From assembly GCA_013791855.1 (NCBI GenBank), contig VMTA01000021.1:1-64000 (forward strand): a DNA stretch of 64,000 nucleotides. The letters are read 5' to 3'. This document shows, in pieces, positions 42,938 through 56,377 of the stretch. The DNA comes from Sideroxydans sp. GTDB lineage: Bacteria > Pseudomonadota > Gammaproteobacteria > Burkholderiales > Gallionellaceae. The stretch's first letter is position 1, and each line of letters begins with the position of its first letter. The notes under the pieces are model-generated. The model ran no database searches, was not told the origin of the DNA, and worked only from the letters and a program-made list of their open reading frames with translations. The position numbers and the translations under genes were made by a program.

Positions 42938-45900
42938 TCATACGAAGCTCCAGCGGCGCAGTTCCGCGGCCGGCATCGGGCGCGCGATCAAATACCCTTG
43001 GCCGTGGCCGCAACCCATGTCGAGCAAGGCGCGGTATTGCGCCTCGGTCTCGATGCCTTCTGCCACGATCTGTCGCCCGAACGCGTGCGCTAGCCCGATG
43101 ATGCCTTGCACGATGGCCAGATCGCCCTTGTCTTCCAGCATGTCGTGCACAAAGGACTGGTCTATCTTGAGCACGTCCACTGGCAGCCTGCTCAGATAGG
43201 ACAGCGAGGAGTAGCCGGTGCCGAAATCGTCCAGCGCGAAACGCACGCCGTACTTGCGGCAAGCCTCGATCACGTCGCGTACGATCGCGATGTCGTTCAG
43301 CGCTGCAGTCTCCAGCACCTCGATCTGCAGCCTGTCCTGCGTCAGTCCGGGATGGCGCGCCAACTGGCGTTGCAGCTTGTCGGCGAAATCTCGCGACTCC
43401 AGGTGGTGGGCCGAGATGTTGATGCTGATCTCGATGTCCAGCCCGTCCTTGGTCCAGCGGTCAAGCTGGGCCAGTGCGCTGGTGATCACCCAGTCGCCGA
43501 TCTCGATGTCGAGTTCGGTGTTCTCGATGGGGCGCAGGAACTCTGCCGGATACAGCAGACCGCGTTCCGGGTGGCGCCAGCGGATCAGTGCTTCGGCACC
43601 AGTCAGCTGGCGCGTGCGCAGGTCGATCTTGGGTTGGTAGTGCAGCTCGAACTGCTGCTGTTGCAGCGCCTCGCGGATATTGTTGAGCAGGATATGCTGG
43701 CTGCGCGTGCGCATGTCCAGCGCGGGATCGTAGATGTGGAAACGGTTCTTGCCCGATTGCTTGGCGACGTACATGGCCTGGTCGGCGTGGCGCAGCAGCG
43801 TGTCCGGGTCCTCGTCGTCCAGCGGGTAGAGGCTGACGCCGATGCTGGTGCTCAGCGTCAGTGATTGCTCCTTGATCAGCATGGGTTCGGCGATGGCGGA
43901 CAGCAGGCGTTCCAGCGTTGCCATGCATTCTTCGCCTCTCTCCAGCCCGAGCAGCACCACCACGAACTCGTCGCCGCCCAGACGCGCCACGGTGTCACCG
44001 CCGCGCAGTGTGTCGCCGATGCGGCGGGCGATCTCGACCAGTACCTGGTCGCCGGCGTCGTGTCCCAGCGTGTCGTTGATGTGCTTGAAGCCGTCCAGGT
44101 CGAGATAACAGACGGCGACCATGTTCTGCTCGCGCGCGGTCTGCGCGATGGCCTGTTTCATACGGTCGGCCAGCAGTACCCGGTTGGGGATGCCGGTCAG
44201 CGCGTCGTAATGCGCGATGCGGCTGAGCTCGGCCTCGTGAGCCTTCAGGTGGCTGATGTCGGAAAACACGCCGACGTAACGTTGCACTTTGCCATCGCTG
44301 TCGCAGATCGCCGAGATGGACAGCAGTTCGGCGTAGATCTCGCCCGACTTGCGCCGGTTCCATATTTCACCCCGCCAGGCCTTGTCCTGTTGCAACGCCT
44401 GCCACATGCCGGCATAGAAGTCGCGGTCATGGTGGCCGGAGCTGAGCAGGCGCGGATTGAGTCCCAGCACTTCCTCGCGGCTGTGGCCGGTGATGTCGAC
44501 GAAGGCCGGATTGACGTCGACGATGTTGTTGTCGGCATCGGTGATCAGGATGGCCTCCTGGCTGTTGTCGAACACGCTGGCGGTGATGCGCAGCGCGTCC
44601 TCCGAAAGTTTGCGCTCGGTGATGTCGGTGCCGATACCGACCAGATAGGAACGGCCGTCGTTGCGGCTGAGGTGACCGGTGAAGTAGTAGGGGACCTTGT
44701 GTCCAGATTTGAGCACGAGTTCCGCTTCGGCCGAAGCGGAACCGTTGCGGAACACATCCTGCATGCGCTGGGCGATCAGGGACTGGTCGTCGCCCTCGAA
44801 CAGATCCAGCGCCGTCATACCTTCGATCTCCTGCTGAGAGTAGCCGGTCACCTGCAGGAAAAGCGGGTTCACCCGCATGAAGTTGCCCGCGGCATCGAGC
44901 ATGTAGAAGATGCCGGGCAGGCTGTTGATGATGTCGTCCAGGAACTGCTTCTGCTGGTGCAGCGCGGTTTCCGCCTGTTTGCGTTCGGTGATGTCGCGGA
45001 TCAGGCCCAGCGCATGCCAGCTATCCTGCAGGCGGAAGGCGGAGATCGACAGCTCCACCGGGAACTCCTCGCCGCTCTTGCGCAGTGCGCTGATCTCGAA
45101 CGTGCTGCCGATGATGTTGCCCTCGCCGCTGTGGCGGAAGAGGCTGAAGCCGCCGTGTGCCTTGTCCCTGTAGATCTCGGGCGTCAGCAGCAAGTGCAGG
45201 TTCTTTCCCATTGCTTCGTCCGCCGTATGGCCGAAGATATCCTCGGCGGCGGGGTTCCAGTAGATGATCTGTTCGTCCGGGCCGACGATCACGATGGCGT
45301 CCTTGGCGAAGGTGCTGATCAGGCGGAACTTCTCCTCGCTCTCGGCCAGTTCCCGGCTGCGCAGCAGCAGATCGGCAGTGCGTTGCCGCACCAGTTCTTC
45401 CAGATGTTCCTGGTGTAACTTCAGTTCGTCCGTCACCTCATGCAACTCGCCGATGATGCTGCGGACGTGGCGGGTGAACGGGTGGAAGATCAGCACTGCT
45501 TCCAGCAACAGCAACAGCAGGGTGACCAGCCAGAACAGGGTCTCGGCCTGTTTCAGGCGCGCGACCGATGTCTCGCCCTCCAGTTGGTACTGCTGCACCA
45601 TGCTGTCGAGCGAGGCGACCAGCGGGCCCGGCGCGGTGCGGGTGATGTATTGCAGCAGCGGGTGGTCGTGGTGCAGCGCGCTATCCTGCAGCCGCAGCAG
45701 TTCGCGCACCGCTTTGATGTAGGTCTTGACCTGCGAGTCGAGCGCATCCGGACCGTCGAAATACATGGCTTGTACGGTCGGTGACTGGATGCCGGGCAGG
45801 CCCATCTCCGCATTGCCATGTGTGAGCCCCCGGTGCGAGACGTCCATCAGATCGATGGCTTCCTGCAGTTTGGCGCGGAAGGCCGGCCTTTCGCTCTGGC

Positions 45901-46135
45901 GCGCATCCGCCAGCAGGTTGGAGAACAGCGCGGTGCGCTGGCTCAGCATGCGCTGGCGTCCGCTGACGTTGACCACCGCCGCGGTGCTCTTCTGCTCGGT
46001 GATCACCAGATCGAGGCTGATCCATGCAGCCGTCGACAGCGTCGCCACCAACGTGAGCGCGATGGCATAGCGCCAGGTCAGCGCACGGGCGACAGCGGTA
46101 TGGGCAGCGTGTTCAAATGAGACGGATGGGATCAT
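42938..46135 (-). CDS. PilJ-type sensor, 3xPAS, GGDEF-EAL protein
   Basis: A 1065-residue membrane protein: span at about 22-44, PilJ/NarX-like sensor with VNVSGRQRMLSQRTALFS, and a second span at about 195-215. Three PAS domains lie at about 270-390, 395-515 and 520-640. GGDEF has an intact VARLGGDEFVVVLL, and EAL has TGAEALIRWRHPERG, LQIEVLETAAL, FALDDFGTGYSSL, LKIDQSFV and VAEGIETEAQ. Both domains keep their catalytic residues, so it could make and degrade c-di-GMP. The NarX-like sensor motif suggests, but does not prove, nitrate or nitrite sensing. Confidence 0.9.
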   Translation of the reverse strand: MIPSVSFEHAAHTAVARALTWRYAIALTLVATLSTAAWISLDLVITEQKSTAAVVNVSGRQRMLSQRTALFSNLLADARQSERPAFRAKLQEAIDLMDVSHRGLTHGNAEMGLPGIQSPTVQAMYFDGPDALDSQVKTYIKAVRELLRLQDSALHHDHPLLQYITRTAPGPLVASLDSMVQQYQLEGETSVARLKQAETLFWLVTLLLLLLEAVLIFHPFTRHVRSIIGELHEVTDELKLHQEHLEELVRQRTADLLLRSRELAESEEKFRLISTFAKDAIVIVGPDEQIIYWNPAAEDIFGHTADEAMGKNLHLLLTPEIYRDKAHGGFSLFRHSGEGNIIGSTFEISALRKSGEEFPVELSISAFRLQDSWHALGLIRDITERKQAETALHQQKQFLDDIINSLPGIFYMLDAAGNFMRVNPLFLQVTGYSQQEIEGMTALDLFEGDDQSLIAQRMQDVFRNGSASAEAELVLKSGHKVPYYFTGHLSRNDGRSYLVGIGTDITERKLSEDALRITASVFDNSQEAILITDADNNIVDVNPAFVDITGHSREEVLGLNPRLLSSGHHDRDFYAGMWQALQQDKAWRGEIWNRRKSGEIYAELLSISAICDSDGKVQRYVGVFSDISHLKAHEAELSRIAHYDALTGIPNRVLLADRMKQAIAQTAREQNMVAVCYLDLDGFKHINDTLGHDAGDQVLVEIARRIGDTLRGGDTVARLGGDEFVVVLLGLERGEECMATLERLLSAIAEPMLIKEQSLTLSTSIGVSLYPLDDEDPDTLLRHADQAMYVAKQSGKNRFHIYDPALDMRTRSQHILLNNIREALQQQQFELHYQPKIDLRTRQLTGAEALIRWRHPERGLLYPAEFLRPIENTELDIEIGDWVITSALAQLDRWTKDGLDIEISINISAHHLESRDFADKLQRQLARHPGLTQDRLQIEVLETAALNDIAIVRDVIEACRKYGVRFALDDFGTGYSSLSYLSRLPVDVLKIDQSFVHDMLEDKGDLAIVQGIIGLAHAFGRQIVAEGIETEAQYRALLDMGCGHGQGYLIARPMPAAELRRWSFV

Positions 46136-48041: not shown

Positions 48042-51000
48042 TCAACCGCACGCCCCGATCGCGCCGCAACTGGTGCAGAACTCGCAGCCGTCCTTCTTGA
48101 TCAGCGTGGCGTTACCGCATTCCTTGCAGAGCTTGCCGGTGATCGTGCGGATGGCGGTGGGTTTGAGCTGGCCTTCGGGGATCTCCAGCACGCCCATCTG
48201 CTGCACCGGATAGCCGTGTTCGTCCAGCACACCGAGCATGGCGTAGCGGTGGATGATGAGTTTGGCGACATACGAGACGGTCGACGGATAGCTTTCCATC
48301 TTGTTGCCGCCCGGCACGCGCGCCATGAAATCGCCTAGCGGTTCGCCGAAGTTGAGCAGCTTGCGCAACTTCATACCGATCCAGGCCGGATCGATCACGC
48401 GCATGTCCAGACTGAGCACCTTGCACAGTCCGTCCAGTGCGCGCGGATACACGCCGGACAGCCACATCGAATAGGGGCGGCGCTGGCCGTCCGGCAACAC
48501 CAGTTCCTTCAGGCCCAGTACGAAGTCGTCGCCGCTGCCCGCGTTGGAGATGTCCACCGTCCAGCTCATGGTGCCGTCGACGCCGGTCTTCGGTTCCTTC
48601 TTGGCGAACAGTGCGTCCATCATCGGCGTGGTCGCGCCGTCGCACACTTCCAGCGCGCCCAGTTGTTCGATGCGGTATTTCAGCAGATGCGCGAAAGCGG
48701 CCACCAGACTGGGCATGCGTTTCACTTCGCCATCCGGCGGCATCGCCATGTCGAAGCCATCGTCGCCCGCCGACTTCATCAGCATCTCCAGCTTCATGCG
48801 TATCCACACCGGGTCGCGCGTGCGCATGTCCATCGACAGCGATTTCGCCAATGCGCCCAGACCGCGCGGCTGCTCGGAACCGTTCACCCACACTTCGAAC
48901 GGATGGTTGCAGCCGTTGGTGGTGTGCGACACGAAGGCCACGAAACTGCCGAGCGGATGTTTGACGACCTGCGACACCCAGCCTTCGCTACCGGCGGGCA
49001 GTTCGGGGCGGCCCGGCCAGCGCAGCGAGGCCAGCGCGGGTTCGGGTGCAGATTCCAGCACGATGCGGCGGTCCTGATCGAACACGAAATCCTGCGGCTG
49101 TTCTTCTGTCTTCTTCTCCGGCGTGACGGATAGCACAGAGCCGAGCACGCTGTTGGGGCGATAGGTCGCCAGACCTTTCAGTCCGGCCTTCCAGGCTTCG
49201 GTGTACAGGTCCTTGAAATCCTCGTAGGGATAGTCGGCCGGCACGTTCACCGTCTTGCTGATCGAGGTGTCGATGTAGGGCGCGACGGCGGCCACCATCT
49301 TCATGTGGTCGATGGCGGAGATCTCCAGCGCGGTGACGAAAGCAGGCGGCAGCTTGTCGGTATCGCCGCCCAGTTTCTTGTACAGACGCCAGGCGTGGTC
49401 TTCCACTGAATAGTCTTTGGTGGTGCCGTCCGGCATGCGCTTCTTGCGCGTGTAGAACCAGGAGAATGGCGGTTCGATGCCGTTCGAGGCATTGTCGGCG
49501 AAGGCCAGCGAGATGGTGCCGGTGGGTGCGATGGAGAGCAGGTGGCTGTTGCGCAGACCGTGCTTGCGTATCTTGTTCTTCAACTCGTCCGGCAGACGCG
49601 AGGCGAAGCGCGGTGCGTCCAGATATTTATCCGCATCCAGCAGCGGGAATGCGCCGCGTTCGATGGCCAGATCGACCGAGGCGGCATAGGCCTCGTCGCG
49701 CATGATGCGCGTGATGTCGGCGGCGAAATCGCGCGCCTCGCCGGTGTCGTAGCGCAGCCCCAGCATCGCCAGCGCATCGCCCAACCCGGTGAAACCGAGC
49801 CCGACACGGCGCTTGCTGCGCGCTTCTTCCTGTTGTTCCGGCAACGGCCACGCGGTCACGTCCAGCACGTTGTCCAGCATGCGGATCGAGGTGCGCACCA
49901 GATGCTTGAACGGTTCGTGATCGAAGCCGGCGTGGTTGGAGAACGGGTTCTTCACCATGCGCGTCAGATCGATGGAGCCGAGGCAGCAGCAGCCGTAGGG
50001 GGGGAGGGGTTGCTCCGCGCAGTTGTGCACATACAGACCGTTGGCATCGAAGGCATGCACCTCGGCGACGGTCACGTCGTACACGTCTTCTACGCCATCC
50101 TCTTCCAATGCGGCGACCGTGGCGACAAAGCGTTCCGCATTCGGCTTGCGCTGATAACTCGCCAGAGATGCCTTGAGCTTGCCCATCTTGTCGCTGTCGG
50201 CAAAGCCGATGCGTTCGGCGTAGCGTGCGAGGTTATCGCCGCTGATGATGAGTTCGTGCAAAGCCTGGCAGGGATATTCTTTGGCGCTGCCTTTGCCGTC
50301 CGGCAACCGTTTCATACCTGCCGGGCGACGATCCTGATAGATGGTCGACACGATGCCGAGTCGTTGCAGCATGCGTTGTGCGGCCTGCAGGTTGTCGAGA
50401 TCGATCTGCGTCAGGCGGACGCTGATGCCTTTCTCCTGTGAACCTTGCACGGAGCCGTCGGCGTCGAACATGCCGCGCAACGCACCGCGATAGAAGTCGG
50501 AGGAGGCGGTTTCCATCGCGGGGGTGAAACGCTTGTTGCCTGGGGATAGCCCCAGTTGCAACGCCAGCGAGCGCAAAGCGCCCGTCGCCATGCGGAACTC
50601 ACCTCGTCCGTCTACCGGTCGCTGCCAGCCGTTGAAGTCGGCGCGATGCGGCAACGTGCGCGCGGCCTGTTCCGCTACGCGCATGACACTCGCGACGCCG
50701 GGTGAGGGTTGGATGTCTGCACCGTTGGCTTGCTTCAGCGCGGCAGCATCCCACACGCTCAACACTGCCTTGTCGGTTTTCAGCGTGCCGTCGCCGATCA
50801 GCAGTCCGATCAGATAACCCTCGGCTTCGGTGTGCGCGCCGCCCCATGCATGCAGGGCGCGATGGTCGTGCAACACGACCTGGTCACCGGATTTTAGTTC
50901 TCCCGCTTTGACCCATTCCGATTCGCGCACGTAGCGTGTCATCCGGGATACGCGCAGCACTTGATGGTCGGCGGTCAAACGCAGGGTATGGCCTTCGCGG

Positions 51001-52007
51001 GTATTCAGGCGCAGCACCGGTTTGTGGCCGGTGAAGAAGAAGCCTTGCGATTCGGTCGGATAGCACTTGCCGTCTACGACAGCTTCGAATGGCTGGCCGA
51101 TCAGATCGCGCACCTGACGCGCACCTTGGTCGGTCATCACCCAGCTGTCTGCAGTGACGCATGGATTCGTAGCCTCGATCACTTCGCAATACGACAGGTT
51201 GTTGTCGCGGTTCATCAGGTCGATGAACAGCACGCCGGGCTCGGCGTGGTCGTAGGTGCTGGCGATGATCTGTTTCCACAGGTCGGTGGCGCGCACCTTG
51301 CGATATACCCACTTGCCGTCGGCGCGTTGTGTCGCACCGGCTTCCTTGATTGCTGCGGAGGGTTCGGCGGCATGCACCAGATCGAACTCTTCGTCTTTCT
51401 CCACGGCTTGCATCAACGCATCGGTCACGCCGACCGAGATGTTGAAGTTGCGCAGGTCGCCCTTGTCCTTGGCGCTGATGAATTTCTCGATGTCGGGATG
51501 GTCGCAACGCAGTACGCCCATCTGTGCACCGCGTCGTGCACCGGCAGACTCAACCGTCTCGCAGGAGCGATCGAACACGCGCATATAGGAGATGGGGCCG
51601 GAAGCGCGCGAGTTGGTGCCTTTCACGTGCGCGCCTTCTGGGCGGATGGTGGAGAAGTCGTAACCGACGCCGCCACCACGCCGCATGGTCTCGGCCGCCT
51701 GTTGCAGCGCGTCGTAGATGCCGGGGCGGCCGTCGCTGAAGCCGGAGATGGCATCGCCCACCGGCTGCACGAAGCAGTTGATCAGCGTGGCTTGTATCTT
51801 CAGTCCGGCGGCGGAGTTGATGCGGCCCGCGGGGACGAAGCCGTTCTCCTGCGCCTGGAAGAAAGCCTCTTCCCATTGCGCGCGTTGCTCCGGTTTCTCG
51901 GCCTGCGCCAGCCCGCGTGCCACGCGACGGCGCACGTCCTGTACCGTGTTTTCGTCTGCTTCCGCGTATTTTTCAAGGAGGACTTCGGTGCTGATCTCTT
52001 GTGTCAT
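48042..52007 (-). CDS. nrdJ: B12-dependent class II ribonucleotide reductase, intein-containing
   Basis: A 1321-residue precursor that would splice to a 941-residue NrdJ. The enzyme reduces ribonucleotides with adenosylcobalamin and works with or without oxygen. Class II/I catalytic blocks are seen: [31 protein letters not shown], the interrupted [39 protein letters not shown] and [24 protein letters not shown]. The C-terminus has TSCPD-like domains and a zinc-like tail ([28 protein letters not shown]). No cobalamin riboswitch is apparent upstream. Confidence 0.95.
50022..51161 (-). mobile_element. Intein with LAGLIDADG homing endonuclease in NrdJ
   Basis: The 380-residue insertion occupies precursor residues 283-662. 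It begins with Cys ([13 protein letters not shown]), has a block B TADH ([14 protein letters not shown]), and two LAGLIDADG-type helices, [13 protein letters not shown] and [14 protein letters not shown]. Block F ([16 protein letters not shown]) precedes the C-terminal LYVHN. The next extein residue is Cys, and removal joins ATNP to [10 protein letters not shown], the catalytic loop. All splicing residues (Cys1, Thr-x-x-His, His-Asn, Cys+1) are present, so splicing is expected to work. The frame is unbroken. Confidence 0.95.
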
Positions 52008-52072: not shown

Positions 52073-52168
52073 CGGATAGATGGCGTGCAATCACATGACG
52101 CAATTTCGCCGTGGATGCGGTAATGTGATGCTTGTTTGTGTTATGTCGACGATGACGAAAAGGATGGT

Positions 52169-55100
52169 ATGAGTGATAACGCATTGAATCCTATTCGTTT
52201 AGGTCTGATGCCACCGTTGACCGGTCTGGTCGGGTTGTACGGGATCGAGATTTGCAATGCTGCGCGCATCGCCTGTGCCGAGATCAATGCAGCTGGCGGG
52301 CTACTCGGCCGTCCGCTGGAACTGATCATCGAGGATGACGGCAGCTTGCCGGATACCGCGGTTCCGGCCGCCTTGCGTCTGGTCGAGCAGCATCATTGCG
52401 ACGCCATCATCGGCAACCTGTTGTCCAACTCGCGCATCGCCGTTGCCGCACAGGTGGCCGAACCCAAGCGTATCCCCTATCTCAACTTCTCGTTCTACGA
52501 AGGCAGCATCTCCGGGCGTTATTTCTTCCACTTCGCCGCATTGCCCAACCAGCAGATCGACCAGATGATTCCCTGGCTGGCCGAACACCACGGCCACAAG
52601 ATGTTCTTCGCGGGCAACAACTATGAATGGCCGCGCGGCTCCATCGATGCAGCCAAGCGCTCGCTGGCCGGGCTGGGGGGCGACGTGCTTGGCGAGGAAT
52701 ACCTGCCCATAGGCGCGAGTCTGCAGGATATCGACTCCTTGCTGCAGCAGGTCGCCCTCTCCGGTGCCGATGTGTTCGTGCCCTATTTCGCCGGTGAAGA
52801 CCAGGTGCATCTGCTCACACGTTTTACTGAGATGGGCTTGAAGAAGCGCATGGCGGTGGCGATGGGGCACTACGACGAGATGATGGTCAGCCAATTGCCG
52901 CCGCAGGTGCGCGAGGGTTTCTATTCCAGCAACACCTATTTCATGTCGGTGGATACGGCGGAGAATCGCAATTATCTGGCGCAACTGGCGCAGCAGCCCG
53001 GTATCTCCGGTATCTGGCCGAACGGCAACGGCATCGTCACCAATTTCGGCGAGGGCACTTATCTGTGCGTGCGCGCTTATGCCAAAGCCGTGCAGGCGGC
53101 GGGCACGACCGAGCCGGAAGCGGTGGTGGATGCGTTGGAGAACGTGCGCGTGGCCTCCCCGCAGGGCGAAGTGGTGATGGATGCCGCCACCCATCATGCC
53201 GCTGTCAACTCATATCTGGCACGGTGCAATGCTGACGGGTCGTTCAGCATCGTCGAATCCTTTGGGCGCATCGCGCCAGTGATCCCCGAGCGCTATCGCC
53301 AGCAAGCCACGTTGGCGAAGTTGCATGAATCGCCTCCGTCGCCCCAGGTGTCTGCGCGCATCTCGGCGGAAGCCAGTGCCGCCATGCAAAGGCTCAATAC
53401 GGCGCGCCAGATATTGTCCATCGCCGACATGGCTATCATCGCCACCAACGAGTTGGGCCTCATCGCCGAGGCCAATCCCAGTGCCTGTTCGCTGTTCGGT
53501 TATACCCTGCAGGAGATGGTCGGCATGTCGATACACCTGCTGCTGCCGCCGCATATACGCGAACGGCATGTCGGTATGGTGCGAGGCTTCGTCGAAGGCG
53601 AGGAGATGGAACGGCGCATGTCTTCGCGCGGCGAGATATCGGGGTATCGCAAGGACGGCTCGTTCTTCCCGCTGGAAGCGGCCATCGCCAAATTCAGGGA
53701 TGGCGAGGAATGGATGCTGGTCGTCACCATGCGCGACGTCACAGAACGCAAGCGCGCGGAGGAGGACATGCTGTGGCGTGCCACGCACGATGGGCTGACG
53801 CAGTTGCCGAACCGTGCGCTGATCCGCGAGCGGCTGGTGAATACCTTGCAGCGTTCGCAGCGGCAGGGGCTGAGTATCGCGCTGCTGTTCATCGATCTGG
53901 ACGGATTCAAGCTGGTGAACGATACCCACGGGCATCAGGCGGGCGATGCCTTGCTCATCAAGGTGGCGGCACGATTGATCGAACAGGTGCGTCCCGGCGA
54001 TACCGTGGCTCGTCTGGCGGGCGACGAATTCGTCGTGTTGTGCGAACAGTTGGAGCAGCCCACCACCATCTCCGCGTTGGCCGAGCGTATCAATGAGGCG
54101 ATGCGCCAGCCTGTCGACTTCAACGGTACACCGCTGTACGTGACCGCCAGCATCGGCATCGCGGTGGGACACGGCAGTACCCATACTGCCGACGATCTGC
54201 TGCGTTCCGCCGATGCCGCGATGTACGAGGTGAAGCAGAAAGGGCGCGACGGATGGCAGTTCTTCAGCGACAGTCTGGAACAGAAAGTGCGCCAGCGTTT
54301 GTCGGTGACCGAGGGTTTGCGCCATGCCATGGAGCGTCAGGAGCTCTCCTGCCGTTTCCAGCCCATCGTCTCTGCCGAGAACCGTCGCATCGTCGGTGCC
54401 GAGCTGTTGCTGCGCTGGCATCCGCAGGGCGGCGAGATATCGCCCGCCGTGTTCATTCCGATCGCCGAGATGACCGGCCCTATCGTCGCCATCGGCTTGT
54501 GGGTGTTCCGTCAGGGCTGTCTGGCCGAGGTCAAGTGGCGCCAGCGCTGGGGCGCACAGGCACCGTCCTATGTGTCGGTGAACGTGTCGACACGCCAGTT
54601 GGACGAGGAGACCCTGGCGCAGGATTTCGCCGGGATATTGCGCGAGACCGGGGCGGATCCGTCCCGCATGCTGATCGAGATCACCGAGACCTCGCTGATG
54701 GCCGATGTGGAGACCAATCTGCATGTGTTGAGACAGCTGGCCGAGCTGGGTTTGCGTGTCGCCGTTGATGACTTCGGCACAGGCTACTCCTCGCTGGCGC
54801 AACTGACGCGCATGCCGGTCAGCGTGCTGAAGATCGACAAGGCTTTCGTCGACGGCGTGGACAAGCAGGCCGATAGCCGCACCCTCATACGCGCCATCAT
54901 CGGTCTGGGACGTTCGCTGGGCATGAAGCTGGTGGCGGAGGGGGTGGAGAACGAGGCACAGATGCTGGAACTGCGCTCGAACGGTTGCCACTTCATCCAG
55001 GGCTATCTTTGCCATCGTCCGCTCGACGAGCAGGCCTTCATCGAGACCGTGGACCGTGAGATCAGCAGCGAGATGCAGGGGGCGGAACCGTCCTTGTATT

Positions 55101-55507
55101 TCCTGCTGTATGTAAGCCAGGCGGCCGTGGAGATGGATGAGGCAACCCTGGCAGAGATCCTCGGAGTGTCGAAGCGGAACAATCAGGTGGCCGGTATCAC
55201 CGGCTGCATGCTCTATCAGGATGGCTGCTTCATGCAGATATTGGAGGGCAGCCGTGACAACGTGCTGAAGCTGATGGAGTACATCCAGACCGATACGCGA
55301 CACAAGCATGTGCGCATCGTCATGCAGGGGAACGAGCAGCAGCGTGTATTCCTGGACTGGAGCATGGAGTTCCACGACATGTCCAGGATTGCCGGCGCGC
55401 CAGACTTCAGCCAGTGGCGGCGCAGGACCATCAATTTCCTCGAACTGGCCGAGGATGCGCGCATGTGCTACAGCTATATCACTGCATTCAAGGGCAATAT
55501 CCTCTAG
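52169..55507 (+). CDS. Cytoplasmic ligand-binding domain-PAS-GGDEF-EAL-BLUF photoreceptor
   Basis: A 1112-residue protein with no signal peptide or span. Residues about 8-375 form a type I periplasmic-binding-protein fold like AmiC/UrtA (IRLGLMPPLTGLVGLYGIEI, AACAEINAAGGLLGRPLE). PAS is at about 410-530, GGDEF (variant RLAGDEFVVL) at about 535-695 and EAL (GAELLLRW, VNVSTRQL, IEITETS, VDDFGTGYSSL, KIDKAFV, EGVENE) at about 710-955. BLUF (975-1068) has Tyr981, Asn1005, Gln1023, Trp1064 and Met1066 at the same relative spacing as AppA Tyr21/Asn45/Gln63/Trp104/Met106. ATG 52169 has AGGA upstream; a TTG at 52136 is less likely. Confidence 0.93.
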   Translation: MSDNALNPIRLGLMPPLTGLVGLYGIEICNAARIACAEINAAGGLLGRPLELIIEDDGSLPDTAVPAALRLVEQHHCDAIIGNLLSNSRIAVAAQVAEPKRIPYLNFSFYEGSISGRYFFHFAALPNQQIDQMIPWLAEHHGHKMFFAGNNYEWPRGSIDAAKRSLAGLGGDVLGEEYLPIGASLQDIDSLLQQVALSGADVFVPYFAGEDQVHLLTRFTEMGLKKRMAVAMGHYDEMMVSQLPPQVREGFYSSNTYFMSVDTAENRNYLAQLAQQPGISGIWPNGNGIVTNFGEGTYLCVRAYAKAVQAAGTTEPEAVVDALENVRVASPQGEVVMDAATHHAAVNSYLARCNADGSFSIVESFGRIAPVIPERYRQQATLAKLHESPPSPQVSARISAEASAAMQRLNTARQILSIADMAIIATNELGLIAEANPSACSLFGYTLQEMVGMSIHLLLPPHIRERHVGMVRGFVEGEEMERRMSSRGEISGYRKDGSFFPLEAAIAKFRDGEEWMLVVTMRDVTERKRAEEDMLWRATHDGLTQLPNRALIRERLVNTLQRSQRQGLSIALLFIDLDGFKLVNDTHGHQAGDALLIKVAARLIEQVRPGDTVARLAGDEFVVLCEQLEQPTTISALAERINEAMRQPVDFNGTPLYVTASIGIAVGHGSTHTADDLLRSADAAMYEVKQKGRDGWQFFSDSLEQKVRQRLSVTEGLRHAMERQELSCRFQPIVSAENRRIVGAELLLRWHPQGGEISPAVFIPIAEMTGPIVAIGLWVFRQGCLAEVKWRQRWGAQAPSYVSVNVSTRQLDEETLAQDFAGILRETGADPSRMLIEITETSLMADVETNLHVLRQLAELGLRVAVDDFGTGYSSLAQLTRMPVSVLKIDKAFVDGVDKQADSRTLIRAIIGLGRSLGMKLVAEGVENEAQMLELRSNGCHFIQGYLCHRPLDEQAFIETVDREISSEMQGAEPSLYFLLYVSQAAVEMDEATLAEILGVSKRNNQVAGITGCMLYQDGCFMQILEGSRDNVLKLMEYIQTDTRHKHVRIVMQGNEQQRVFLDWSMEFHDMSRIAGAPDFSQWRRRTINFLELAEDARMCYSYITAFKGNIL

Positions 55508-55636
55508 CCATGCCCGCTGCGGGAGTTATTGGCGGGGGTGATTCCCGAGTGTAATTCAGGGTGTTTGTTTGCAGAACGAGCAGGTAGAGTCCCAGTCGAG
55601 CGGTCAACTGTTCCACATCGGATCTTGGAGGTTTAC

Positions 55637-56377
55637 ATGAAAGAAGGCATCCCGATGCGTCATTTCTTCCAGTTGCTGGGGCTCATCGCCCTTGCGGAGC
55701 TGTTGCTGATGGTCACCGTCGATCCGATGATGGATGCGTACGGCTATCCGGTGTGGATACGCGCCATGACCGATGCCGGTCTGCTCGCTGTCATCTGCGT
55801 GCCTTTCATGATGAGCTTTCAGCTGCGACCGATGCAGATGGCCTACCACGACCCGATGACGGGCTTGCCGAATCGACAGTTGTTCAACGACCGTCTTGCG
55901 CATGCGCTGGTCGTGGCCAAGCGCGAGCAGCGCAGCTTTGCGGTGATCTTCCTCGATCTGGATAACTTCAAACCGATCAATGACCAGTTCGGCCACCGTG
56001 TCGGCGACGTGGTGCTGAAGCTGGCGGCGGTGCGCATCGAGAGCGGTGTGCGTGAGAGTGATACGGTGGCCCGCCTCGGCGGCGATGAATTTGCCATCCT
56101 GCTCACTGATGCGGAAAGTACGGCGGACGCGGATCGTGTGATCCGCAAGATTACCGTGGCCCTGTCCCGGCCGTTCGAAGTGCGCGGTCATACACTGGAA
56201 CTGGGCGTCAGTGCCGGTGTGGCTTTCTATCCTGCGGATGGAGTGAGCGGAATGGAATTGGTCGATGCTGCCGATGATGCGATGTATCGCAACAAGGGGC
56301 TGAAAAAAACGCTGGATACGGTGGCAATACAGGACAACAGTCTACAGCCGAGCGGGGCCGATTCAATACAACTCTAG
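55637..56377 (+). CDS. Membrane-bound diguanylate cyclase
   Basis: A 246-residue protein with two N-terminal spans (about residues 8-26 and 38-58) and a GGDEF domain (YHDPMTGLPNRQLFNDRL, FLDLDNFKPINDQFGH, VARLGGDEFAILL). The catalytic GGDEF is intact, with no clear RxxD I-site five residues upstream. I chose ATG 55637 because of GGAGG 5-9 nt upstream. It lies 130 bp after the BLUF protein gene and may share its signal pathway. Confidence 0.9.
   Translation: MKEGIPMRHFFQLLGLIALAELLLMVTVDPMMDAYGYPVWIRAMTDAGLLAVICVPFMMSFQLRPMQMAYHDPMTGLPNRQLFNDRLAHALVVAKREQRSFAVIFLDLDNFKPINDQFGHRVGDVVLKLAAVRIESGVRESDTVARLGGDEFAILLTDAESTADADRVIRKITVALSRPFEVRGHTLELGVSAGVAFYPADGVSGMELVDAADDAMYRNKGLKKTLDTVAIQDNSLQPSGADSIQL

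Follow-up and report, generated by a model that had tools for sequence, protein, structure and literature searches.

The window analysed here, a stretch of 64,000 nucleotides from a Sideroxydans sp. genome (GenBank assembly GCA_013791855.1, contig VMTA01000021.1, positions 1 to 64,000), contains on its forward strand a BldP-type gene at 52169..55507. This open frame of 1112 codons, recognized by its Pfam domains and its orthologues, encodes a receptor, a PAS, a GGDEF, an EAL and a BLUF domain on a single chain, and its product adds one more member to a family that is known but still little described. The family's point of interest is an orphan receptor, assigned to the cytoplasm, on a predicted cyclic di-GMP (c-di-GMP) phosphodiesterase that would respond to light and perhaps to oxygen.

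Domain Organization of the BldP-Type Gene

The start codon of the gene is preceded, at a distance of 4 nt, by AAGGA, a Shine-Dalgarno-like motif read directly from the sequence (52160..52164), and a promoter scan found none. From the N-terminus onwards, the protein comprises a type-I binding-protein fold of the UrtA/AmiC branch (residues 8-378, 52190..53302; Pfam Peripla_BP_5/6, structure model and Foldseek), a PAS domain resembling the haem PAS domains of FixL and DosP in its PDB sequence matches (residues 413-530, 53405..53758), a GGDEF domain with the AGDEF variant of the motif and an I-site RPGD at residues 608-611 (residues 536-696, 53774..54256; Pfam and alignment), an EAL phosphodiesterase domain with a complete catalytic set (residues 713-952, 54305..55024; Pfam and alignment), a BLUF domain (residues 976-1067, 55094..55369; Pfam), and a poorly conserved C-terminal stretch that forms two short helices in the structure model (residues 1068-1112, 55370..55504). 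All Pfam matches lie above the gathering score, namely Peripla_BP_6 at residues 8-357 (E 6e-77), Peripla_BP_5 at 9-378 (3e-62), PAS_9 at 421-526 (6e-13), GGDEF at 538-694 (7e-47), EAL at 717-951 (4e-67), and BLUF at 976-1067 (2e-28). The full-length structure model has a mean pLDDT of 83.3 and is good inside the domains, with residues 380-419 disordered.

The domain anatomy of this single chain, as first read from the letters, is confirmed. The original prediction had proposed the same five domains in the same order, with which the Pfam search agrees, and had held the EAL catalytic residues to be kept, the full set being indeed present at the expected positions. The BLUF residues that it named, Tyr981, Asn1005, Gln1023, Trp1064, and Met1066, are likewise found, the last four at 24, 42, 83, and 85 residues after the tyrosine, which we take to be the spacing of AppA, and so is the AGDEF variant. 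Features that this prediction did not mention are the resemblance of the PAS domain to the haem PAS of FixL, the intact I-site RPGD, a second diguanylate cyclase gene just downstream, and the wide occurrence of the architecture.

Orthology to BldP

Genome G555 is identified by its sequence as Allochromatium vinosum DSM 180, because 15,000 compared bases of its second contig agree at 100% identity with the A. vinosum plasmid NC_013852.1. Two frames of this genome, 1150 and 261 aa long, contain BLUF domains, and as the shorter one has too little room, just the 1150-aa frame can hold an EAL domain as well; the encoded protein is 57% identical to the window protein over residues 1-1107. Genome G593, which we take to be that of Magnetococcus marinus MC-1, has BLUF domains in frames of 1122, 168, and 144 aa, of which only the 1122-aa frame is long enough for an EAL domain, and the corresponding protein is 55% identical to the window protein over residues 9-1100. 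Both proteins share with the window protein the five domains, their order, and orthology over the whole chain, and the BldP proteins of A. vinosum and M. marinus are listed as blue-light-activated BLUF/FAD phosphodiesterases in Table 1 of a review (PMC8846402).

On this sequence evidence, the window protein is likely to be an orthologue of BldP, that is, a cytoplasmic EAL phosphodiesterase activated by blue light, whose light-controlled output would then already have been characterized in its orthologues. Unlike A. vinosum BldP, which carries GGDEF, the window protein and the G593 protein carry the AGDEF motif, and unlike the G593 protein, in which the I-site arginine is replaced by asparagine, the window protein has an intact RPGD. 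The original paper on BldP, by Ryu et al. in 2017, reportedly described C-terminal EAL-BLUF modules, is said to have found the light activation of both BldPs to depend on oxygen, and reportedly derived EB1 from the M. marinus protein; EB1 presumably consists of just the EAL-BLUF fragment. This optogenetic c-di-GMP tool is described in the same review as a synthetic protein made from BldP (PMC8846402).

Conservation, Fold, and Pocket of the Receptor Domain

The receptor is the most conserved domain of the family. Among 45 BLUF-bearing members, the mean pairwise identity amounts to 70.5% for the receptor, compared with 64.8% for GGDEF, 62.9% for EAL, 58.1% for PAS, and 44.6% for BLUF. A bias check was carried out on ten members, of which the window protein, the M. 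marinus protein (G593), and L192 were obtained via BLUF and those of seven Allochromatium genomes were obtained by genus with a whole-protein query. Cross-lineage comparison in this set, comprising 24 non-independent pairs, gave 66.0% for the receptor, 59.0% for GGDEF, 58.0% for EAL, 44.1% for PAS, and 43.5% for BLUF, while all 45 pairs gave 73.6, 68.6, 70.4, 53.0, and 56.4%, respectively. The idea that conservation of the receptor is an artefact of the search was rejected, as it is still the highest in ten members that were not picked by receptor similarity.

The AlphaFold2 model of the receptor reaches a mean pLDDT of 93.6 and a pTM of 0.92. Its ten best solved matches in Foldseek, among them the urea-binding protein 8tg1, UrtA (7s6e, 7s6f, and 8hic), and AmiC (1qnl, 1pea, and 1qo0), have TM-scores by query of 0.87-0.88 at 25-27% identity, and the search against solved sequences agrees in placing UrtA-type proteins and AmiC closest. 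The score of the window receptor against the NCBIfam UrtA model TIGR03407 is 167.5, below the cut-off of 492.75, and the window protein is the sole match to this model in its genome.

Urea is bound in Prochlorococcus UrtA via Ser122, Gln144, Tyr190, and Asn246, with Trp120, Tyr141, Glu146, Phe192, and Ser274 located near it (PMC10392092). These pocket residues were mapped onto the window receptor by eye through the sequence-search alignment, and three of the seven residues of the urea pocket proved to be kept. Ser122, Glu146, and Tyr190 are retained as Ser86, Glu111, and Tyr152 in 77 of 77 receptors, which says little because the same residues are also retained in 23 of 23 distant relatives. 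Trp120, Tyr141, and Gln144 are replaced by Leu84, Asn106, and Phe109 in all 77, and Asn246 by Ala208 in 76 of 77; according to our own reading of the alignment, 8tg1 has the UrtA letters at these pocket positions. Characteristic of the subfamily are, among others, Asn83, Leu84, Asn106, Phe107, Asn151, Glu153, Pro205, His234, and Glu295.

In its fold the domain matches urea and amide receptors, yet four pocket residues are replaced, which makes binding of urea as in UrtA unlikely; the ligand is probably not urea in a UrtA-like binding mode, nor a short amide bound in the manner of AmiC. The AmiC/UrtA-like fold named in the original prediction thus holds, whereas the urea and amides suggested there as ligands fit poorly with the replaced pocket residues. 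Although UrtA and AmiC provide the closest solved folds and sequences, the window receptor is set apart from them by its fusion to a signalling enzyme, as well as by its changed pocket and its position under the UrtA cut-off. No account of a ligand for the receptor domain was found in the literature covered, in which the original description of BldP was not included.

Location of the Receptor

AmiC is a cytoplasmic ligand sensor. In the window protein, the receptor fold starts as early as residue 8, so that a signal peptide would not fit in front of it, and the N-terminus shows no lipobox, in keeping with the absence of a signal peptide reported in the original prediction. The mean hydropathy over 19 residues in the linker between receptor and PAS (residues 371-416) never exceeds 1.01 in 67 of 67 members, and a membrane helix between the receptor and the cytoplasmic domains is therefore not expected. 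In 54 of 80 loci, fewer than 20 residues of open frame precede the receptor. When the N-terminal extensions were scanned for hydropathy, 0 of 80 loci rose above 1.6, a weak result because the scan is insensitive on exported relatives, flagging just 6 of 23 distant relatives, 21 of which look exported by eye (L057 begins inside the signal, and L056 is without a visible one). The PAS, GGDEF, EAL, and BLUF domains, for their part, require a cytoplasmic location. On these sequence grounds, the receptor is placed in the cytoplasm, as expected of an AmiC-type sensor.

PAS Domain and Predicted Haem Binding

In the search against solved sequences, the seven best matches of the PAS domain are haem PAS domains of FixL (1d06, E 1.5e-13), followed by DosP, with which the window protein also shares the joining of PAS to GGDEF-EAL. 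His467 (53567..53569) stands in the printed alignments opposite the FixL histidine that holds haem, and is a histidine in 65 of 67 rows, the two rows without it being L115 and L077, both of which lack BLUF. Arg487 (53627..53629), a candidate distal arginine 20 residues after His467, is an arginine in the same 65 rows, and this spacing is presumably that of FixL and DosP. The histidine is absent from all 21 PAS stretches taken from the kinase branch (18 of them distinct, four gapped there, and the 13 kinases of the phylum draw described below outside the count), and the His-Arg pattern occurs in 2 of the 23 PAS stretches from other GGDEF-EAL proteins that served as a control, compared with 65 of 67 family rows. 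Both the kinase and the control counts leave out GGDEF-EAL members of the family, and the control is also without one protein of the kinase branch. On balance, the PAS domain is predicted, by a narrow preference, to bind haem and to make the response dependent on O2, and a haem PAS would explain the oxygen dependence reported for BldP.

Output Domains and Related Light-Responsive Enzymes

In the BLUF domain, Tyr981, Asn1005, Gln1023, Trp1064, and Met1066 are kept in 50, 50, 50, 50, and 48 of the 50 BLUF rows, the window included, and the nearest solved BLUF sequences are Tll0078, Slr1694, and AppA. The EAL domain contains Glu745, Arg749, Asn805, Glu837, Asp867, Asp868, Lys888, Glu924, and Gln944, which we take to be the catalytic set, and its motifs are nearly invariant over 67 rows. 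In the same rows the I-site RPGD occurs 62 times, while the GGDEF motif reads LAGDEF in 38, LGGDEF in 11, and FGGDEF in four, with other Ala/Ser variants besides. The nearly invariant EAL motifs, together with LAGDEF and the I-site, fit a phosphodiesterase with a regulatory GGDEF domain. The window protein very probably degrades c-di-GMP rather than making it, and its GGDEF domain, with AGDEF and an I-site, would serve as a module regulated by GTP or c-di-GMP.

A BLUF domain is likewise coupled to an EAL domain in BlrP1 of Klebsiella and in BluF/YcgF of Escherichia coli, and BlrP1 (3gfx) matches both domains of the window protein. Unlike the window protein, in which BLUF is C-terminal, BlrP1 has BLUF first (chain 6-105) and EAL second, with no receptor, PAS, or GGDEF domain; the BLUF domain also precedes EAL in BluF/YcgF. 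A further parallel is RmcA of Pseudomonas aeruginosa, an arginine-sensing, blue-light-responsive phosphodiesterase with a domain of the binding-protein clan, SBP_bac_3; this domain, however, belongs to another Pfam family, the clan being called periplasmic, and light acts via PAS and FAD rather than via BLUF (PMC8846402). Within the binding-protein clan, only SBP_bac_3 is given as studied in c-di-GMP networks in section 10 of this 2022 review (PMC8846402).

Distribution of the Architecture and Variable Presence of BLUF

The search of named genomes employed an alignment of 16 receptor domains, and the best 80 of 153 loci, ranked by receptor similarity, were assigned domain orders by profile hidden Markov models built for this analysis. 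The order receptor-PAS-GGDEF-EAL-BLUF was found in 44 of these 80 retrieved loci, the same order without BLUF in 16 (of which two are truncated at contig ends and one shows the start of a BLUF domain), the receptor on a histidine kinase in 15, and split or cut frames in five. According to the records, the owners are Proteobacteria and metagenome-assembled genomes (MAGs) called Desulfamplus, Nitrospirae, Myxococcota, Neomarinimicrobiota, and others, and receptor identity to the window's is 63-92% in the relatives examined. A unique architecture is ruled out by these 44 loci and by the Allochromatium genus, as the window protein is matched up to residue 1108 of 1112 in all eight genomes from the genus around A. 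humboldtianum. The original prediction knew of no described protein of this kind and had named many characterized proteins of the same architecture as what would speak against it; the former statement finds no support, since the architecture is common and the A. vinosum and M. marinus orthologues correspond to BldP, and the latter has in part been found, through the BldP orthologues and the common order.

Among 158 genomes of the window's own family, the Gallionellaceae, scanned with at most four candidates per genome scored, at least eight have the full-length protein, the window's own included, one has the gene split into two frames, two have a version that lacks BLUF, and in three the receptor is attached to a histidine kinase. 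Of 399 genomes sampled from the order, seven have the receptor subfamily, at 68-100% identity and in frames of 778-1156 aa, and all other matches there at E 1e-40 or better are at most 33% identical. An even draw of 398 genomes from the phylum yielded 20 receptor matches in 18 genomes, 19 of them with a whole frame, comprising three with BLUF (G000, G609, and G751, the coordinates of the latter two equalling those of G593 and G589), three GGDEF-EAL proteins without BLUF, and 13 kinases. Among the BLUF matches listed for this draw, five lie in frames of at least 700 aa, three of which are the BldP-type family. The window protein is the sole BLUF match in its genome, and a viral origin was rejected, as no relative was confirmed in the viral contigs searched. 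BLUF is described as rare in combination with GGDEF/EAL in a review (PMC8846402), and a 2014 census had already counted a BLUF-GGDEF/EAL protein in Methylomicrobium alcaliphilum (PMC4844311).

In a tree built from 104 receptor domains, of which 100 are different, a single change separates 70 c-di-GMP rows from 32 kinase rows, the support for this split being 93 and thus below the 95 mark; the single change fits a single fusion origin without proving it. In a tree of 65 GGDEF-EAL members from which the BLUF columns were excluded, the presence of BLUF requires seven changes, four of them forced by well-supported branches. Members with BLUF occur throughout this tree, so that repeated loss would be the most economical interpretation, and these sequences suggest that BLUF comes and goes along the tree. 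Around the 15 uncut genes without BLUF, no remnant of this domain was found, although some of these loci end soon downstream of the gene (after about 200 bases in L081).

Some observations on individual members may be added. One member without BLUF has a weak separate BLUF-like stretch (L086:12778-12855, E 0.002) about 4 kb downstream, near the locus edge. L077, L101, L115, and L149, all without BLUF, group together and include both rows that lack the haem histidine (L077 and L115); three of the four are titled Nitrosomonas or Nitrosomonadaceae. In the public MAG UBA12482, the BldP-type gene is divided between two frames that overlap (L040:7108-10486 / L083), through a frameshift or an assembly error. 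Judging from the records, many owners of the receptor (L078-L157) are bacteria of redox gradients, namely iron oxidizers, methanotrophs, magnetotactic bacteria, and purple sulfur bacteria.

Proposed Mechanism and Alternative Explanations

In the proposed mechanism, blue light acting on the C-terminal BLUF domain with its FAD would activate the EAL phosphodiesterase, by which c-di-GMP is hydrolysed. By analogy with BlrP1, there is good reason to expect that BLUF photochemistry shifts the C-terminal helices together with the dimer interface of EAL, and that blue light thereby raises the activity. The haem PAS would render the response dependent on O2. It also appears fairly probable that the N-terminal Venus-flytrap domain closes on a conserved small metabolite in the cytoplasm and signals via the flexible linker to PAS. 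Light, oxygen, and metabolite would then jointly lower c-di-GMP and favour departure from the surface by the cell, presumably that of an iron-oxidizing bacterium living in gradients. As a tentative and more speculative proposal, BldP enzymes may have three inputs, with the metabolite receptor as the main one, the haem PAS as an oxygen gate, and blue light as an option kept or dropped by lineages; the receptor, which in a sister branch feeds histidine kinases, would then read a metabolite other than urea or a short amide and of general importance to bacteria of redox gradients.

Several observations weigh against the proposed mechanism. The pTM of the full-length model is 0.43, and the arrangement of the domains is therefore not fixed; the N-terminal hydropathy scan is insensitive, as described above; and all ten best Foldseek matches are urea or amide receptors. 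The 15 uncut relatives without BLUF indicate that light is not indispensable to the family. HMMER aligns Arg487 one column off the FixL arginine, so that this candidate distal arginine is out of register with FixL and DosP, a histidine stands at the His467 column in 9 of the 23 control PAS stretches, and the case for haem is built from sequence. Finally, AGDEF can be catalytic.

The receptor could instead be a ligand-free structural or dimerization module, the protein being a phosphodiesterase regulated by light, and perhaps by oxygen, only. BLUF and EAL alone suffice for light control in BlrP1 (PMC8846402), and no recurring transport or catabolic neighbour was found among the neighbour clusters or the ten neighbours chosen for Pfam; such a module is nevertheless unlikely in view of the conservation of the receptor, the inclusion of loops aligned with the UrtA cleft among the invariant positions, and the occurrence of this domain on histidine kinases in a sister branch. 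Sensing of urea or a short aliphatic amide, which the Foldseek matches favour and to which the retained Ser86, Glu111, and Tyr152 add little, being equally present in the distant relatives, is quite improbable given the four replaced pocket residues, the low UrtA score, and a genome that offers no better UrtA match.

As regards the output and the PAS domain, the protein might be a net diguanylate cyclase, or it might switch between both activities in response to light or ligand, as its good GGDEF score, the frequent RPGD, and the LGGDEF and FGGDEF members, together with A. vinosum and its GGDEF, would allow. The prevalence of LAGDEF and other Ala/Ser variants, the nearly invariant EAL motifs, and the description of BldP as a phosphodiesterase in the review (PMC8846402) make this very improbable. 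An ordinary PAS domain without haem, in which oxygen plays no part, is a serious contender, with chances somewhat short of even: besides the control histidines, the residues that contact the haem propionates in FixL are not conserved in the family, while the FixL and DosP matches and the contrast in His467 between the family and the kinase branch speak for haem.

The light-activated output of BldP was already known, and what is added here is the conservation of the receptor, the changing presence of BLUF along the tree, the replaced UrtA pocket, and the FixL-like PAS domain. These features suggest that in nature the receptor is the constant part of BldP-type enzymes and light the optional one. 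With a pocket unlike those of its nearest characterized relatives and no telling neighbours, the receptor is a clear target for ligand discovery.

Gene Neighbourhood and Other Genes of the Window

Downstream of the BldP-type gene, on the same forward strand, lies a gene for a diguanylate cyclase with a canonical LGGDEF and a hydrophobic N-terminus (55637..56377; Pfam GGDEF), for which the ATG at 55637 is a likelier start than the TTG at 55529. An adjacent orthologue is found in two (L033 and L034) of the nine family loci L032-L040, and it is possible that this cyclase is the counterpart of the BldP-type enzyme. When the neighbours in 84 loci were grouped by single linkage, the largest cluster recurred in 27 loci and the next clusters in at most six; the members identified in the 27-locus cluster are GGDEF proteins (L034 and L079) or the second half of the gene itself (L083). 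Pfam assigned the ten chosen neighbours to unrelated families, including a response regulator and MotB. Derivation of the ligand from the gene neighbourhood was rejected, as no telling neighbour recurs in these loci or among the ten neighbours.

Two other genes of the window lie on the reverse strand. A ribonucleotide reductase of the vitamin-B12 type is interrupted by a LAGLIDADG intein (48042-52007), and the matches to its orthologues in L032 and L034 each fall into two directly adjoining pieces with residues 284-662 left out, as though no intein were present there; the orthologues in L033 and L035 match as one piece. A second large c-di-GMP protein, with a PilJ-type sensor, three PAS stretches, GGDEF, and EAL, is encoded at 42938-46135.

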